This document shows positions 22,180 to 28,608 of a stretch of DNA of 64,000 nucleotides, piece after piece. Position 1 is the stretch's first letter. Every line of letters starts with the position of its first letter. This stretch comes from Clostridia bacterium (GTDB lineage Bacteria; Bacillota; Clostridia; Oscillospirales; Acutalibacteraceae). The stretch spans positions 21,563-85,562 of the forward strand of contig JAGAMK010000004.1 in NCBI GenBank assembly GCA_017624735.1, given 5' to 3'. Both the position numbers and the translations under genes were made by a program. The notes under the pieces are model-generated. The model was not told the DNA's origin. It made no database searches and saw nothing but the letters and a program-made list of their open reading frames with translations.

Positions 22180-22503
22180 ATGAGCCATAATATTATCGGT
22201 GCTTTGGTAACGGCTGTAATCGGTTTCTTGATTGCCTTTATCAATTATTCTTTTTCGAAAAAAGCTCTTGAAAAAGCTCCGGAAAAATTTTCACTTATAA
22301 CAGTGGTTCGACAGATTTTACAGATAGGTTATCTCGCCATTGTTTATTTTGTTGGTACAAAAATACAAGTTGCAGATGTTGTTTACCTGCTTGTGGGAGC
22401 AGTTTTGGGTATGACCATACCAATGTTCTATTTTACAAAGAAACTTTTGACATTCAACGAAAGTTTAGTTAAGACTAAAAAGGAGGATGATGCAAATGGG
22501 TGA
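22180..22503 (+). CDS. atpI: AtpI-like small membrane protein
   Basis: A 107-residue protein with about three to four hydrophobic segments (residues 5-25, 42-60, 68-88), first in the ATP synthase operon. Position, size and hydrophobic pattern match the poorly conserved AtpI (UncI), which helps assemble the c-ring and may aid Mg transport. The identification is mainly positional. Its 3' end overlaps atpB by 8 bases, and the AAGGAGG for atpB lies inside its coding region. Confidence 0.65.
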   Translation: MSHNIIGALVTAVIGFLIAFINYSFSKKALEKAPEKFSLITVVRQILQIGYLAIVYFVGTKIQVADVVYLLVGAVLGMTIPMFYFTKKLLTFNESLVKTKKEDDANG

Positions 22504-23164
22504 AAAATCGGAAGTAATTATTAACCTTTTTGGCATTCTTGATGTAACAGGTGAAGTCGTCACAATGTGGATAATGCTTTTTGTTGTCACATTGATTTCG
22601 CTTATAGTGAAAAAAAATCTTAAAGAAAGACCGGGCAAGTTTCAGAATATTATTGAAACCGGTGTAGAGTATCTTGATAATTTCTTTACAGATATTCTCG
22701 GTAAAAAGAAGGCAAGAAAATATTTCACATTCCTTGCATCACTTTTTATTTTCATTATTTTCTCAAACTATTCGGGAATGTTTCCTGGTGTGGGTCTTAC
22801 GGATTATGTAAAGGCTCCAACAGCCTCTCTTTCCGTTACGGCAGCATTGGGTGTAATGACATTTTTCTTCTTGCAGATTTCGGGTATCAAACACAATGCA
22901 AAGCATTATTTCAAGCATTTTGTGTCACCGATATTCATTATGTTGCCACTTCTTTTGCTTGATGAAATAATCAAACCTGCATCTCTTGCTTTACGTTTGT
23001 ATGGTAACATATTTGGTGAAGAAATGGTTACAGAAGAACTTTATCATATCTTGCCAATTGGTGCACCTGTAATCATGATGGTACTTTCACTGCTTTTCTG
23101 TGCTTTACAAGCAATAGTGTTTACAATGCTCGTCTCAATTTATCTTGACGAGGTTACAGAATAA
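22496..23164 (+). CDS. atpB: ATP synthase F0 subunit a
   Basis: A 222-residue integral membrane subunit forming the ion half-channels next to the c-ring. The essential Arg lies in SLALRLYGNIFGEEM near residue 166-180, the most conserved part of subunit a; SNYSGMFPG earlier is also typical. The start is ATG at 22496, 9 bases after AGGAGG (22481-22486); ATGs at 22487 and 22490 are too close to that site. The protein is rather short for subunit a, as in many Firmicutes. Confidence 0.93.
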   Translation: MGEKSEVIINLFGILDVTGEVVTMWIMLFVVTLISLIVKKNLKERPGKFQNIIETGVEYLDNFFTDILGKKKARKYFTFLASLFIFIIFSNYSGMFPGVGLTDYVKAPTASLSVTAALGVMTFFFLQISGIKHNAKHYFKHFVSPIFIMLPLLLLDEIIKPASLALRLYGNIFGEEMVTEELYHILPIGAPVIMMVLSLLFCALQAIVFTMLVSIYLDEVTE

Positions 23165-23194
23165 AATAAATTATAATTTAAGGAGTTAATAAAA

Positions 23195-23425
23195 ATGACA
23201 AATTCAGCAATTATCGCAATGGCAGCAGCAATCGCAATCGCAATCAGTACACTTGGTCCATCAATTGGACAGGGAATTACAGCTAGGGCAGCTATGGAAA
23301 GTATTGCACGTCAGCCTGAAGCAGCAAAGGATATCCGTTCAACTCTTATTATTTCCCTTGCTCTTATGGAAGCACTTACAATCTACGGTCTTCTTATTGC
23401 ATTCATGCTTGTTTCAAAAATCTAA
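23195..23425 (+). CDS. atpE: ATP synthase F0 subunit c
   Basis: A 76-residue two-helix subunit that forms the rotor ring. The loop ARQPEA is canonical. The ion-binding carboxylate is Glu in [11 protein letters not shown]. Helix 1 carries Gln in GPSIGQG and helix 2 carries Tyr four residues after the Glu+1 position, as in Na-binding rings, but the Ser/Thr that follow Glu in those rings are Ala and Leu here. Coupling ion is therefore uncertain, with protons favoured. The ribosome site AAGGAG is strong and the 10-base gap to atpF indicates co-translation. Confidence 0.95.
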
Positions 23426-23435
23426 GGAGTGAACT

Positions 23436-23861
23436 ATGAATATACAGCCATCAATAATGGTCTGGACTGTAATTTGCTTTTTGCTTCTGACAGTAATACT
23501 TAAAAATCTTCTCTTTAAACCGGTGCTTAAGGTTATGGATAGCCGACGTGAAAAAACACAGGCTGCAAAAGAGAAAAAAGAAAACATTGAAAAACTTATT
23601 CAGGAGAATTTGGAGCAGGTTGAAAAAGAAAAGGCTCTTGCTGCTGAAAAGAAAATAAAAGAAGAAAAACAGAAACTTGAGCAGATACAGCTTCAAGGCA
23701 AAAACGAAATTGAAACTGCACAAAGACAATGTCTTGATGATATACAGAAGTATAGAGAAGACATTATCCACGAGCGTGATAAAATTGTGTATTCCGTTGC
23801 TCCAAAAATGGAGACAGCGGCGGCTTTGTTTGCGAAAAATATTATCTCGCATAGGATATGA
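23436..23861 (+). CDS. atpF: ATP synthase F0 subunit b
   Basis: A 141-residue peripheral-stalk subunit: one N-terminal membrane helix (about 8-27) and a long charged coiled-coil (about 40-120, rich in Lys/Glu). Conserved features such as FKPVLKVMDSRREK after the helix are clear. It is a little shorter than usual (about 160). Only 6 bases separate it from the next gene, which itself begins with a second b-like stalk. The two may pair as b and b', as in cyanobacteria and alphaproteobacteria (inference). Confidence 0.92.
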   Translation: MNIQPSIMVWTVICFLLLTVILKNLLFKPVLKVMDSRREKTQAAKEKKENIEKLIQENLEQVEKEKALAAEKKIKEEKQKLEQIQLQGKNEIETAQRQCLDDIQKYREDIIHERDKIVYSVAPKMETAAALFAKNIISHRI

Positions 23862-23867
23862 TAAATT

Positions 23868-26078
23868 ATGGAAATACAATATGTAATAATTAACTTTATT
23901 ATCCTTCTTACAATCCTTGTTGTTGCGGGCAGAAAAACCGTAAAGCGTATCTTTGGTGACCGTCTTGAAAAAATCAATAAAGAACTTGATGAGGCTGAAG
24001 AACTTGAAAAGATGGAAATTCCTGTTTTCGAGCCTTATGTTGAAGACGAAACTGATGATAGAATCAGCGAAGATATTGCCAAGGCACAGGCTGTTGTAGA
24101 AGAAAAAATCAATTCAATAAAAGCATTCGGTGAGAGAGAATATAATGAAATTCATCGTACAATGATAGAGAATGCACGAAAAGAACTTTTCTCTGTTATG
24201 AAGGAAAATGTCGTTAAACTTTTCTCTTATGAAAAGTATTCAGAGGAAATCAAGGCACTCGATGGACAGGTTTTAGATGCAATCCTTTCACAAATCGGTC
24301 TTACTAGTGGCGATATGGCATATCTTAAACACCATGATGTGCTTTATGTTACTCTTACATCGGCATTCCCACTTGAAAAAGAATTGGTTGATAAAGTAGA
24401 TGAAGCAACAAAAAAACTTCTTGAATCAGTTAATGGTAAAACATCTCTCTGGGTTCTTGAAGATAGTTCTCTTATCGGCGGTCTTAAACTTCGTATCGGT
24501 GATACTGTTTATGACGGTACAGTAAGTGAAGAACTTTATCAATTTGAAAAAAATATGAACCATGAGCCCATCATGGATGACGATACAGTTGGTCTCCTTA
24601 TTCAGGAATTCACTCAAAAAGCTGAAGAATTCAGACCACAGATTCATAAGTATCAGTTAGGTCGTGTTATGACCGTTTCTGACGGTATCTGTTGGATGGA
24701 TGGTCTTGCAGATATTATGTACGGCGAGGTTGTCGAGTTTGAGTGTGGAGAAAGAGGTATGGTTCTTGACATTCAGCAAAACCGTATCGGTTGCGTTATC
24801 TTCGGTGAGTTTGAACACATTGAAGCAGGTAGCCGTGTAAGACGTGTGGGCAGAATTGCTTCCGTTCCGGTAGGTGAATGTCTTTTAGGCAGAGTTGTTG
24901 ATGCTCTTGGTAATCCTATTGATGCTATGGGCTATCTTCCTTATGAGAAAAGCAGACCTATTGAGTTCAAAGCACCTGCAATTCTTGACCGTGCACCTGT
25001 TAATTCACCAATGCATACAGGTATCAAGGCTATTGATGCTCTTGTGCCTATTGGTAAGGGACAAAGAGAACTTATTATCGGTGACAGACAGACAGGTAAA
25101 ACAGCTATTGCAGTTGATACAATCATCAACCAAAAAGGTAAAAATACAATCTGCATTTATGTTGCAATCGGTCAAAAGGAAACTCTTGTTGCCGAGATAA
25201 AAGAAAAATTGCAGTCAAAGGGTGCTATGGAATACACAACAATTATTGCTGTTCCTGCATCATCTTCCGCAGCGCTTCAGTATATTGCTCCGTTCTCGGG
25301 TTCTGCAATGGCAGAGTACTTTATGTATGAGGGCAAAGATGTTCTCATAGTCTTTGATGACCTTTCAAAGCATGCTGTTGCTTATCGTGAATTGTCACTT
25401 CTTCTTCATCGTCCTTCAGGACGTGAAGCATATCCAGGTGATATTTTCTATCTTCATTCAAGACTTCTTGAAAGAGCAGCTCACCTTTCTGACGACCTTG
25501 GTGGTGGCTCAATTACAGCACTTCCGATTATTGAAACTCTCGCAGGCGATATTTCTGCATATATTCCAACAAACGTTATTTCTATTACTGACGGACAGAT
25601 TTTCCTTGATGCAGAATTGTTCAACGAAGGTCAGCGTCCTGCAGTAAACGTGGGACTTTCAGTTTCCCGTGTTGGTGGTGCAGCTCAGAGTCCTGTTATG
25701 AAAAAGGTTTCATCAAGCCTTCGTACAAGACTTGCTCAATACAGAGAACTTGCTGAATTTATGCAGTTTGGTTCCGATGTTGACGATGCAACAAAGGCAA
25801 CTCTTGAAGCAGGAAAACGTCTTACAGAGGCTCTCAAGCAAGGCAGATTTTTACCAATTGCCGACGAAATGCAGACTATTCTCATTTTTGCTGTCAGTGA
25901 AGGCTATGCAAAGAATGTGGATGTTCAGGATATGGAAAGGTTTGAAAAGGAACTTTATAGTTTCTTTGAAACTGAGAAGGCTTCACTTGCTCTTAAGGTG
26001 AAGACTGCAAGAAAATTGGACGACACACTCAGAGAAGAATTGAATAGTGCTCTCGTTGAATTTGTTGAGAGGTTTTAA
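23868..26078 (+). CDS. atpA: Fused ATP synthase subunit: b-like stalk + delta C-terminal domain + alpha
   Basis: A single uninterrupted 736-residue frame. Residues 1-24 hold a membrane helix (INFIILLTILVVAG), and 25-150 are a charged helical stalk like subunit b. Residues 155-229 match the C-terminal domain of delta/OSCP: VTLTSAFPLEKELVDKV, then SLIGGLKLRIGDTVYDG and VSEELYQFEKN. From about residue 230 a complete alpha subunit follows: GRVMTVSDGICWMDGL, Walker A GDRQTGKT near 405, VSRVGGAAQ with the conserved Arg, and AQYRELAEFMQFGSDVD. No free delta gene exists in the operon. No convincing ribosome site lies before Met230, so separate alpha from an internal start is not evident. F1 has three alphas but normally one delta, which makes the stoichiometry a puzzle. 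Confidence 0.93.
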   Translation: MEIQYVIINFIILLTILVVAGRKTVKRIFGDRLEKINKELDEAEELEKMEIPVFEPYVEDETDDRISEDIAKAQAVVEEKINSIKAFGEREYNEIHRTMIENARKELFSVMKENVVKLFSYEKYSEEIKALDGQVLDAILSQIGLTSGDMAYLKHHDVLYVTLTSAFPLEKELVDKVDEATKKLLESVNGKTSLWVLEDSSLIGGLKLRIGDTVYDGTVSEELYQFEKNMNHEPIMDDDTVGLLIQEFTQKAEEFRPQIHKYQLGRVMTVSDGICWMDGLADIMYGEVVEFECGERGMVLDIQQNRIGCVIFGEFEHIEAGSRVRRVGRIASVPVGECLLGRVVDALGNPIDAMGYLPYEKSRPIEFKAPAILDRAPVNSPMHTGIKAIDALVPIGKGQRELIIGDRQTGKTAIAVDTIINQKGKNTICIYVAIGQKETLVAEIKEKLQSKGAMEYTTIIAVPASSSAALQYIAPFSGSAMAEYFMYEGKDVLIVFDDLSKHAVAYRELSLLLHRPSGREAYPGDIFYLHSRLLERAAHLSDDLGGGSITALPIIETLAGDISAYIPTNVISITDGQIFLDAELFNEGQRPAVNVGLSVSRVGGAAQSPVMKKVSSSLRTRLAQYRELAEFMQFGSDVDDATKATLEAGKRLTEALKQGRFLPIADEMQTILIFAVSEGYAKNVDVQDMERFEKELYSFFETEKASLALKVKTARKLDDTLREELNSALVEFVERF

Positions 26079-26080
26079 TT

Positions 26081-26917
26081 ATGCCTACCATACAAAATCT
26101 TAAAAAGAAGCTTCAGGTAATTCATTCAACACGAAAAATTACTCAGGCTATGAAAACTGCATCTACGGTTAAGTTTTCGAAGATGGCTACACTTTATTCT
26201 GATTATGAAAAGTATGAAGAACAGTGTAATCGTCTATACCAGACTTATCGTAAGGATTTTAATTCCATTTTATCCCTTAAAAATCCCGATGCGCCTGTTT
26301 TATACATTCTCCTTTCTTCAAATAGGGGAATGTGTGGAAGTTTTAATACAGAATTGTTCTCGTTTTTTGAGAACGTTGTTCGTAAACAGAAAAAAACTCC
26401 TGCTGTGATTTGTTGTGGTAAAAAAGGAAAGGATTTCCTTGATAATAAGAAGATTTCTTATATCGATGCTTATGTCTTTGAAGATAAACCGGCATATTCA
26501 GATGCCTGTGAGCTTTTTGAACAAATAAAGGAACTTATACAAAACGGGGATGTCTCTGCCGTTAAAATGGTATATCCCCGATATACTAATATGATGAAAC
26601 AAACACCTGTGTGCAGTGATTTGTTTGTTTTTGACGAAGGAATGTCAGAGGGTGAGGAACCTCTGTTTGTTCCTGACAGAGAGGCGGTTATACTCAATAC
26701 TGCCGAAAAAATATTTGTTTCAATTCTCTATAAAAAGATACTTGAAACAGCTTTAGGTGCCCAGGCGGCGACCCTTACAACAATGCGTAGTGCCTATGAT
26801 ACTGCTTGTGAATACAGTGCACAACTTGAAACACAGATTAACCGTAAGCGTCAAAGTCAGGTTACTGCCGACGTTATTGAGATTTCGTCGGAATACTCAA
26901 TGAAAGAGGAGGAATAA
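26081..26917 (+). CDS. atpG: ATP synthase F1 subunit gamma
   Basis: A 278-residue central-stalk subunit. Conserved ends are present: IHSTRKITQAMKTASTVKFSK near the N-terminus and ETALGAQAATLTTMRSAYDT near residue 222, followed by RKRQSQVTADVIEISS. The SSNRGMCGSFN segment near 79 is the family's SDRGLCG-like motif. Normal length, with no insertion or deletion. It lies 2 bases after the fused gene and 3 bases before atpD. Confidence 0.96.
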   Translation: MPTIQNLKKKLQVIHSTRKITQAMKTASTVKFSKMATLYSDYEKYEEQCNRLYQTYRKDFNSILSLKNPDAPVLYILLSSNRGMCGSFNTELFSFFENVVRKQKKTPAVICCGKKGKDFLDNKKISYIDAYVFEDKPAYSDACELFEQIKELIQNGDVSAVKMVYPRYTNMMKQTPVCSDLFVFDEGMSEGEEPLFVPDREAVILNTAEKIFVSILYKKILETALGAQAATLTTMRSAYDTACEYSAQLETQINRKRQSQVTADVIEISSEYSMKEEE

Positions 26918-28321
<1,404 letters not shown>

Positions 28322-28326
28322 TATAT

Positions 28327-28608
28327 ATGAAGGATATTCTGACTGTAAAGTTTTTTACTGTTGACCGTCAGATTCCTGCTGTGGAATGTGACAGTGTCCG
28401 TATCCCCGTTGCAGACAGTTCAAAGGGTGAGTTTTCAGGCTCATACGGAATAAAAAAAGGCCATGCAAGAGCAGTTTTCGCTCTAAAATCCGGCACAGTA
28501 ATTGTTGCCAAAGACGGAAAAACAGTCCTCACGGCTAACATTTCCGACGGATTTGCAATAGTCGAAAATAACGAAATCAACATAACAGTTGATAGAATAG
28601 AAGAATAA
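28327..28608 (+). CDS. atpC: ATP synthase F1 subunit epsilon, N-terminal domain only
   Basis: A 93-residue epsilon subunit, against about 130-140 in most bacteria. The beta-sandwich domain is recognisable (LTVKFFTVDRQIPAVECDSVRIPV, then GSYGIKKGHARAVFALKSG, and ISDGFAIVENNEINIT). The C-terminal two-helix domain, which inhibits ATP hydrolysis in other species, is absent; the stop is followed within 6 bases by a terminator stem, so no displaced second half exists. The start is ATG at 28327; GTG at 28318 is in frame, but GGGTGA (28316-28321) favours the ATG. Confidence 0.88.
   Translation: MKDILTVKFFTVDRQIPAVECDSVRIPVADSSKGEFSGSYGIKKGHARAVFALKSGTVIVAKDGKTVLTANISDGFAIVENNEINITVDRIEE

Follow-up and report, generated by a model that had tools for sequence, protein, structure and literature searches.

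A natural ATP synthase alpha subunit carrying a b-type stalk and the delta C-terminal domain: a candidate multi-stalk F-type enzyme from gut Clostridia

An open reading frame of 736 codons from a Clostridia genome is predicted to encode an F-type ATP synthase alpha subunit bearing the delta C-terminal domain and a membrane-anchored b′ stalk on its own N terminus. The frame lies in a 64,000-nucleotide stretch of contig JAGAMK010000004.1 (hereafter, the window). From the domain composition and by analogy with an engineered enzyme, we infer the number of stalks and consider it reasonably probable that the gene encodes part of a natural multi-stalk F-type ATP synthase. A stronger form of this proposal, in which three obligatory covalent b/b′ stators and three a subunits surround a single c-ring, raise the number of ions carried per turn about threefold over an ordinary enzyme and work at very low proton-motive force, is advanced tentatively. 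Several features of the sequence support the multi-stalk reading: the only delta and F-type alpha matches of the assembly reside in this gene, the delta N-terminal domain is lost, the stalk is b-like, the frame is unbroken in relatives and a b gene lies upstream. Further support of the same kind comes from a junction of fixed length next to a stalk of variable length, low dN/dS ratios, a short epsilon subunit and start signals that do not favor internal initiation.

The fusion gene (23868..26078, + strand) contains no internal stop, and the open frame together with Pfam and NCBIfam analyses upheld the preliminary description of a single 736-residue protein comprising a membrane helix, a b stalk, a C-terminal part of delta and a complete alpha subunit. 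Pfam ATP-synt_B (PF00430) matched residues 4 to 115 with 28.1 bits, barely above the cut-off of 28. This match includes the membrane helix (residues 4 to 22; 23877..23933, + strand), for which the peak 19-residue hydropathy was 2.43, starting at residue 3; a transmembrane-like stretch is found within the first 60 residues of 78/78 fusions. The b′-type stalk (residues 23 to 149; 23934..24314, + strand) is aligned by its profile to residues 11 to 157 of PS3 b. It contains a variable acidic and proline-containing segment at residues 49 to 70, with Pro52 present in 71 of the 78 fusions, and insertions relative to the window protein occur only after residues 49, 59 and 64. The conserved proline and the acidic variable stretch indicate that the stalk is not one plain unbroken helix. 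The delta/OSCP C-terminal domain (residues 150 to 230; 24315..24557, + strand) was identified by Pfam OSCP (PF00213), which matched residues 152 to 230 over profile positions 96 to 172 of 172 only (45.9 bits; cut-off, 22.3) and was recovered in 19/19 members of set A2. The linker and the alpha N-terminal helix (residues 231 to 262; 24558..24653, + strand), delimited by the spacing from D212 to Q263 and by dN/dS, connect this domain to the alpha core (residues 263 to 736; 24654..26075, + strand), which comprises the barrel, nucleotide-binding and C-terminal domains. Three Pfam alpha domains matched residues 265 to 732, the NCBIfam atpA model TIGR00962 scored 718.7 bits (cut-off, 484.45), and the motifs GDRQTGKT and VSRVGG are located at residues 405 and 599.

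As judged from these matches, the delta N-terminal domain is missing from the fusion, and residues 23 to 149 match b instead. The delta/OSCP-type sequence reported previously was thus recovered as a C-terminal domain at residues 152 to 230, the N-terminal domain being absent. A delta N-terminal domain hidden within residues 50 to 150 appears unlikely, since alignment to Pfam models and to profiles of solved structures assigns this part of the protein to b; the background to this idea is a weak match to a whole-delta model (NF004399, residues 53 to 230, 31 bits of 160).

The ATP synthase operon occupies positions 22180-28608 of the window, with all genes on the + strand in the order small membrane protein-a-c-b-fusion-gamma-beta-epsilon. 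The first open reading frame (22180..22503) is AtpI-like by position only and matched no Pfam or NCBIfam family over its cut-off; several fusion operons have a related frame in the corresponding position. It is followed by genes encoding subunit a (22496..23164; 222 residues; PF00119, 158.2 bits; LRLYGN motif at residue 166) and subunit c (23195..23425; 76 residues; PF00137, 68.5 bits; TIGR01260, 54.4 bits for a cut-off of 43.95). Subunit c displays GQG and MEALTIY around its ion site. The Na+ signature is incomplete, making protons the likelier coupling ion. The separate subunit b (23436..23861; 141 residues) scored below the cut-offs of both PF00430 (24.4 bits; cut-off, 28) and NF006293 (48.2 bits; cut-off, 118). 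Its gene ends 6 bases upstream of the fusion, and b is presumed to be the partner of the fused b′ stalk. Downstream of the fusion are the genes for gamma (26081..26917; 278 residues; PF00231, 177.7 bits), beta (26921..28321; 466 residues; TIGR01039, 764.5 bits; GGAGVGKT and GERSREGN motifs) and epsilon (28327..28608; 93 residues; PF02823, 41.5 bits, a model of the N-terminal domain only). The operon is of the F type: atpA and atpD scored over their cut-offs, as did the Pfam models of a, c, gamma and epsilon, and intact P-loops were seen in alpha and beta, as was an intact arginine motif in a. All seven subunits (alpha, beta, gamma, epsilon, a, b and c) are therefore represented with their catalytic motifs, b being in place at scores below the curated cut-offs.

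The 2.04-Mb assembly (69 contigs; 97.54% complete) contains one OSCP match and one F-type alpha over cut-off, both of them in the fusion gene. A separate delta with an N-terminal domain is absent, the sole OSCP match being the C-terminal domain inside the fusion. This agrees with the initial observation that atpF precedes the fusion in an operon devoid of a free atpH, and, with no separate atpH or atpA over cut-off in this assembly, speaks against the concern that such genes elsewhere in the genome might serve the main enzyme. The genome also encodes a V/A-type ATPase (L114:7457-10521, contig C13) with A and B subunits of 589 and 432 residues.

An assembly or sequencing error that joined separate genes in silico would leave a stop in the authentic sequence, feared near positions 24540-24570. 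None is present there, and nothing was found in favor of such an error. Scanning of genome contigs with an N-terminal alignment returned 158 stretches encoding a match, and the best 80 of them were analyzed, so that the search for the same fusion in other genomes, as had been proposed, yielded at least 80 relatives. All of these best 80 of 158 come from metagenome-assembled genomes, many of them titled as ruminant gut. The whole unbroken frame (734 to 789 residues) is present in 77/80, the other three ending at contig ends. The relatives are 56% to 92% identical to the window protein. Conservation of the same open frame to about 56% protein identity makes an error so improbable that we set it aside. 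Among the same best 80 of 158, b is the next recognized gene upstream of the fusion in all 80, and the full order a-c-b-fusion-gamma-beta-epsilon is found in 67, the other 13 having at least one outer gene missing from the available stretch.

The distribution of the fusion is patchy. The b′-deltaCTD-alpha frame was detected in 18 of 394 sampled genomes of the order, including the window genome, with one copy (G285) cut by a contig end. In the class sample (391 genomes) it matched the window's own genome only; a further candidate (G533) is a 588-residue stalkless fusion beside a separate b. The frame was absent from 123 other sampled genomes of the phylum and from all seven additional congeneric genomes in the order sample. 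Six of these seven (G397, G432, G450, G456, G479 and G518) had no F-type alpha at 1e-100 among the matches listed, and the seventh, G098, has an unfused F-type alpha; in this genus, F-type ATP synthase is thus an accessory enzyme. By comparison, alpha is present in at least 206/394 genomes of the order and at least 218/391 of the class, in a census supplemented by querying 55 and 65 chosen genomes. Frames of 836 to 882 residues in G637, G682 and G791 were rejected because their loci contain no recognized ATP synthase gene. Within the 19 carrier genomes, three (G148, G236 and G502) encode a second delta over the OSCP cut-off and 16 do not, G414 having an additional match below cut-off; a second F-ATPase occurs in 3/19. 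Because relatives in the genus lack the fusion, the window genome encodes a V/A-type ATPase and some carriers have a second F-ATPase, the fused enzyme may have been acquired and is not necessarily the principal synthase. The relatives described above (L196-L275) overlap partly with the loci taken from the sampled genomes, so counts from the two sets are not additive.

The absence of the delta N-terminal domain matters most for the multi-stalk reading, because an engineered Bacillus PS3 FoF1 from which it had been removed, and in which the delta C-terminal domain was fused to alpha, acquired as many as three stalks with three a subunits (Ueno et al. 2025, PMC12229609). In that paper, the delta N-terminal domain, on the threefold axis, is described as limiting the enzyme to one stalk, ATP synthases are said to have been described so far with a single a subunit per complex, and the engineered enzyme is reported with a measured H+/ATP ratio of 5.8 versus 3.0 (PMC12229609). 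The structures are PDB entries 9JC1 and 9JC2, the former listed in the paper's data statement. The fusion described here resembles this deltaDeltaN-alpha enzyme in both respects, since the delta N-terminal domain is absent and the delta C-terminal domain is joined to the alpha N terminus. The delta and alpha matches are also similarly spaced, 19 residues apart in the window protein (230→249) and 18 in the engineered chain 9jc1_I (73→91), values that are approximate as they depend on the ends of local alignments. The epsilon C-terminal domain, removed in the engineered enzyme (PMC12229609), is likewise absent from the window enzyme, and the epsilon frame is shorter than 120 residues in 83/89 fusion loci, some of which are near-duplicates. 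Unlike the engineered enzyme, the window enzyme is natural, it carries the b′ stalk and membrane helix in the alpha chain, which ties stalk copy number to alpha, and its predicted stalk is a b/b′ heterodimer where the engineered enzyme has b2.

Comparison of the relatives supports the view that the fusion protein is made and used whole. Each alpha3beta3 head of F1 contains three copies of alpha, and three copies of the fusion would therefore enter each head. With the delta N-terminal domain gone, each alpha could hold its own stalk, as in the engineered enzyme; each b′ would pair with one copy of the separate b in a heterodimeric stalk that may recruit an a subunit. The complex could then reach (b′-delta-alpha)3 beta3 b3 a3 gamma epsilon c(n). 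The preliminary description had rightly pointed out the conflict between three alphas and one stalk per F1. Since the stalk is covalently part of alpha and alpha is present in three copies, three b′ stalks are expected, barring cleavage of the protein or separate synthesis of alpha. Of the two options originally offered, stalks on all three alphas fit best, and separate translation of alpha found no support.

Cutting would require that the whole protein be translated and that a protease then separate delta from alpha, with one b′-delta kept and the surplus degraded to give an ordinary one-stalk enzyme. This reading, which we consider unlikely, has the appeal of restoring the ordinary architecture, and the linker (residues 231 to 240) is less conserved than its surroundings, with a mean majority residue of 0.48 compared with 0.76 for the delta C-terminal domain and 0.90 for the alpha barrel. 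The spacing across the junction argues against it: D212 of the delta motif and Q263 of the alpha core are separated by 51 residues in 75/78 proteins (50, 52 and 53 in the others), whereas the stalk length from F29 to D149 varies across the fusions. The dN/dS ratios, rough estimates from 84 non-independent pairs with synonymous differences of 0.48 to 0.73, ranged from 0.02 to 0.21 over all segments and were lowest in the linker (0.023, from ten codons only), with 0.057 in the alpha N-terminal helix. A delta released by such a cut would also lack the N-terminal domain that normally holds delta on the head. Separate initiation of alpha at an internal start, with the full-length protein supplying a single stalk copy, is not favored by the sequence comparison and appears more doubtful still. 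In-frame ATG codons exist near the junction of the window protein at residues 230, 236 and 268, but they are kept in only 10, 19 and 35 of the 78 fusions, respectively. An ATG preceded by a Shine-Dalgarno (SD)-like site occurs within residues 215 to 262 in 3/78 fusions, inside the range of control stretches (1 to 16), and counting GTG and TTG as well raises this number to 11/78 (controls, 1 to 26). Only 37/77 true starts have an SD-like site, which limits the power of this comparison, as starts devoid of such a site escape it.

Under another reading, also improbable in our estimation, the three alphas would all bear stalks and only one stalk would pair with b and a, leaving the other two b′ helices idle in the membrane of a covalent multi-stalk enzyme with a single a subunit. 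This arrangement is in line with an operon that has a single gene each for a and b, and with the value of 1.26 stalks seen per particle of the engineered enzyme, fewer than biochemistry suggested (PMC12229609). Yet the stalks visible in that enzyme always retained an a subunit (PMC12229609). The single a gene also weighs against the multi-stalk reading itself, as three a subunits per complex would need matching expression. The median SD strength in fusion operons was strongest for a (-9.2) and weak for both the fusion (-4.8) and beta (-3.5), and that of a was -3.0 at stalkless-fusion loci and -5.8 at unfused loci; start calls are uncertain and near-duplicates are included in all of these values, which do not decide the a:alpha ratio.

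Fusions of delta to alpha are not restricted to the stalk-bearing form. Acidaminococcus fermentans and two UniProt entries are named as natural examples in PMC12229609, whose authors considered a natural multi-stalk enzyme likely but unverified. From the order, we collected 52 loci in which the alpha frame is long (L116-L167), together with the second ATPase of G148 (L113), and all 53 have at least 89 residues ahead of the alpha core. In a table of 222 rows (rows below 300 bits or 300 profile positions left out, as were loci also available as longer stretches; near-duplicates included), the extensions ahead of alpha comprised 12 to 56 residues in unfused proteins and otherwise formed groups of 89 to 124, 134 to 157, 182 to 202 and 251 to 276 residues. 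A delta C-terminal domain profile built from 19 b′-delta-alpha proteins recognized 96/96 proteins of that type, training rows included, and, at 1e-3, 49/60, 4/10 and 10/11 of the three groups without a stalk, respectively. Most of the 45 unfused rows lacked the length needed for this search and hence provide no control. Stalkless rows missed by the profile were mostly weak matches, with practically none for L180, and Pfam OSCP exceeded its cut-off in 7/7 of the stalkless fusions scanned. Stalkless delta-alpha fusions are thus common in the sampled genomes. Like the fusion described here, these proteins (L113, L116-L167 and others, as well as that of A. fermentans) carry a delta C-terminal domain covalently on alpha, mostly with the delta N-terminal domain missing (70/81 rows, judged by extension length), but they have neither stalk nor membrane helix. 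The different stator design proposed at the outset would lie in the stalk in cis on alpha, as covalent linkage of delta to alpha by itself is not unique. The group with extensions of 182 to 202 residues (L103-L105, L118, L123 and L159-L163) includes two proteins scanned by Pfam, L103 and L159, that hold most of delta including its N-terminal domain; fusions of this type would not fit a simple multi-stalk rule. In the stalkless group with 89- to 124-residue extensions, the c-subunit frame has a median of 119 residues compared with 76 in the stalk-bearing clade (start codons as called, near-duplicates included), and epsilon comprises at least 120 residues in 53/55 of the short-extension stalkless group, near-duplicates again included.

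A quick phylogeny of 113 alpha cores, thinned by hand from the 222 rows with no similarity rule or bootstrap and midpoint rooted for drawing, united the 22 b′-delta-alpha rows in one clade, split off by a branch with SH-aLRT support of 99% and a long stem (0.46). The stalkless rows were placed elsewhere on the tree. The state of alpha, fused or unfused, changes 10 times on this tree, or at least 7 times if starred branches alone are counted, and constraining all 83 fused rows together was rejected (p-AU, 6.6e-54). These results indicate that the covalent linkage of delta to alpha was gained or lost several times, and by this sequence comparison the stalk-bearing form requires only one origin in the sample. 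Neighboring states were also encountered. In G098, a free 72-residue delta C-terminal domain gene (L111:5152-5370) lies between b and a separate alpha, and G165 has a similar 74-residue frame. In G411, b is joined to a delta C-terminal domain in a 229-residue protein (L173:5012-5701, - strand) that resembles the b subunit of N-ATPases, and alpha is separate. Free or b-joined delta C-terminal domains thus indicate that the delta N-terminal domain can be lost without fusion to alpha. G148 encodes two different fused F-ATPases, one b′-delta-alpha (L010) and one stalkless (L113). A candidate unfused b′-delta (L109) proved to be a full-length delta of 261 residues.

The mycobacterial b-delta protein, cited as a precedent in the preliminary description, also combines a b stalk and delta in one chain, and the fusion profile matches the b part and the delta C-terminal domain of PDB 7jg5 chain d. 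The resemblance covers b and the delta C-terminal domain, and the b subunit of N-ATPases is resembled likewise. Mycobacteria also possess a second, free b, as noted in PMC5709465, which describes delta-b fusions in Gordonia and Mycobacterium; its wording "b-delta-alpha" probably refers to gene order. In contrast to the window protein, alpha is separate in the mycobacterial enzyme, and the 445-residue chain d, with its delta C-terminal domain match at residues 385 to 441, has space for a full delta. We therefore did not assign the fusion, with alpha in the chain and the delta N-terminal domain absent, to this type. The b subunit of N-ATPases (TIGR03321, PRK14474) similarly consists of a b stalk followed by a delta-like end, and the alpha subunit of these enzymes is not known to be fused. 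PRK14474 matched residues 6 to 232 of the window protein with only 27.6 bits of the 339 required, and TIGR03321 reached 21.7 of 224.7. Membership in the N-ATPases was rejected, as alpha (TIGR03324, 595.6 versus 750.5) and beta (TIGR03305, 577.5 versus 752) both scored below cut-off. V-type ATPases have three peripheral stalks and share with the proposed enzyme the use of several stators per complex; their stalk subunits differ and the solution is not homologous. N-ATPases are described in PMC5706428 as having no delta and a longer b; in the window assembly, a separate delta is missing and the N-ATPase b models score far below cut-off. In the open-access literature searched, we recognized no paper describing a b-delta-alpha fusion.

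With a stalk locked to a three-copy subunit, a junction of nearly fixed length and the delta N-terminal domain gone, the clade is a stronger candidate for a natural multi-stalk enzyme than the fusions named in PMC12229609. What is new relative to that study is a natural chain with the stalk covalently in alpha, the multi-stalk design having so far been shown in an engineered enzyme. Should every a subunit conduct, the number of ions per ATP could rise two- to threefold. Such an enzyme might make ATP when the proton-motive force is low or, when the opposing gradient is small, use each ATP to pump many ions; either ability would be useful to an anaerobe fermenting in the gut. If the multi-stalk reading is true, a clade of gut Clostridia, represented here by metagenome-assembled genomes only, would possess a multi-stalk enzyme, and the ions-per-ATP ratio, a basic bioenergetic quantity, would have been changed in nature through added stators and not through a larger c-ring.
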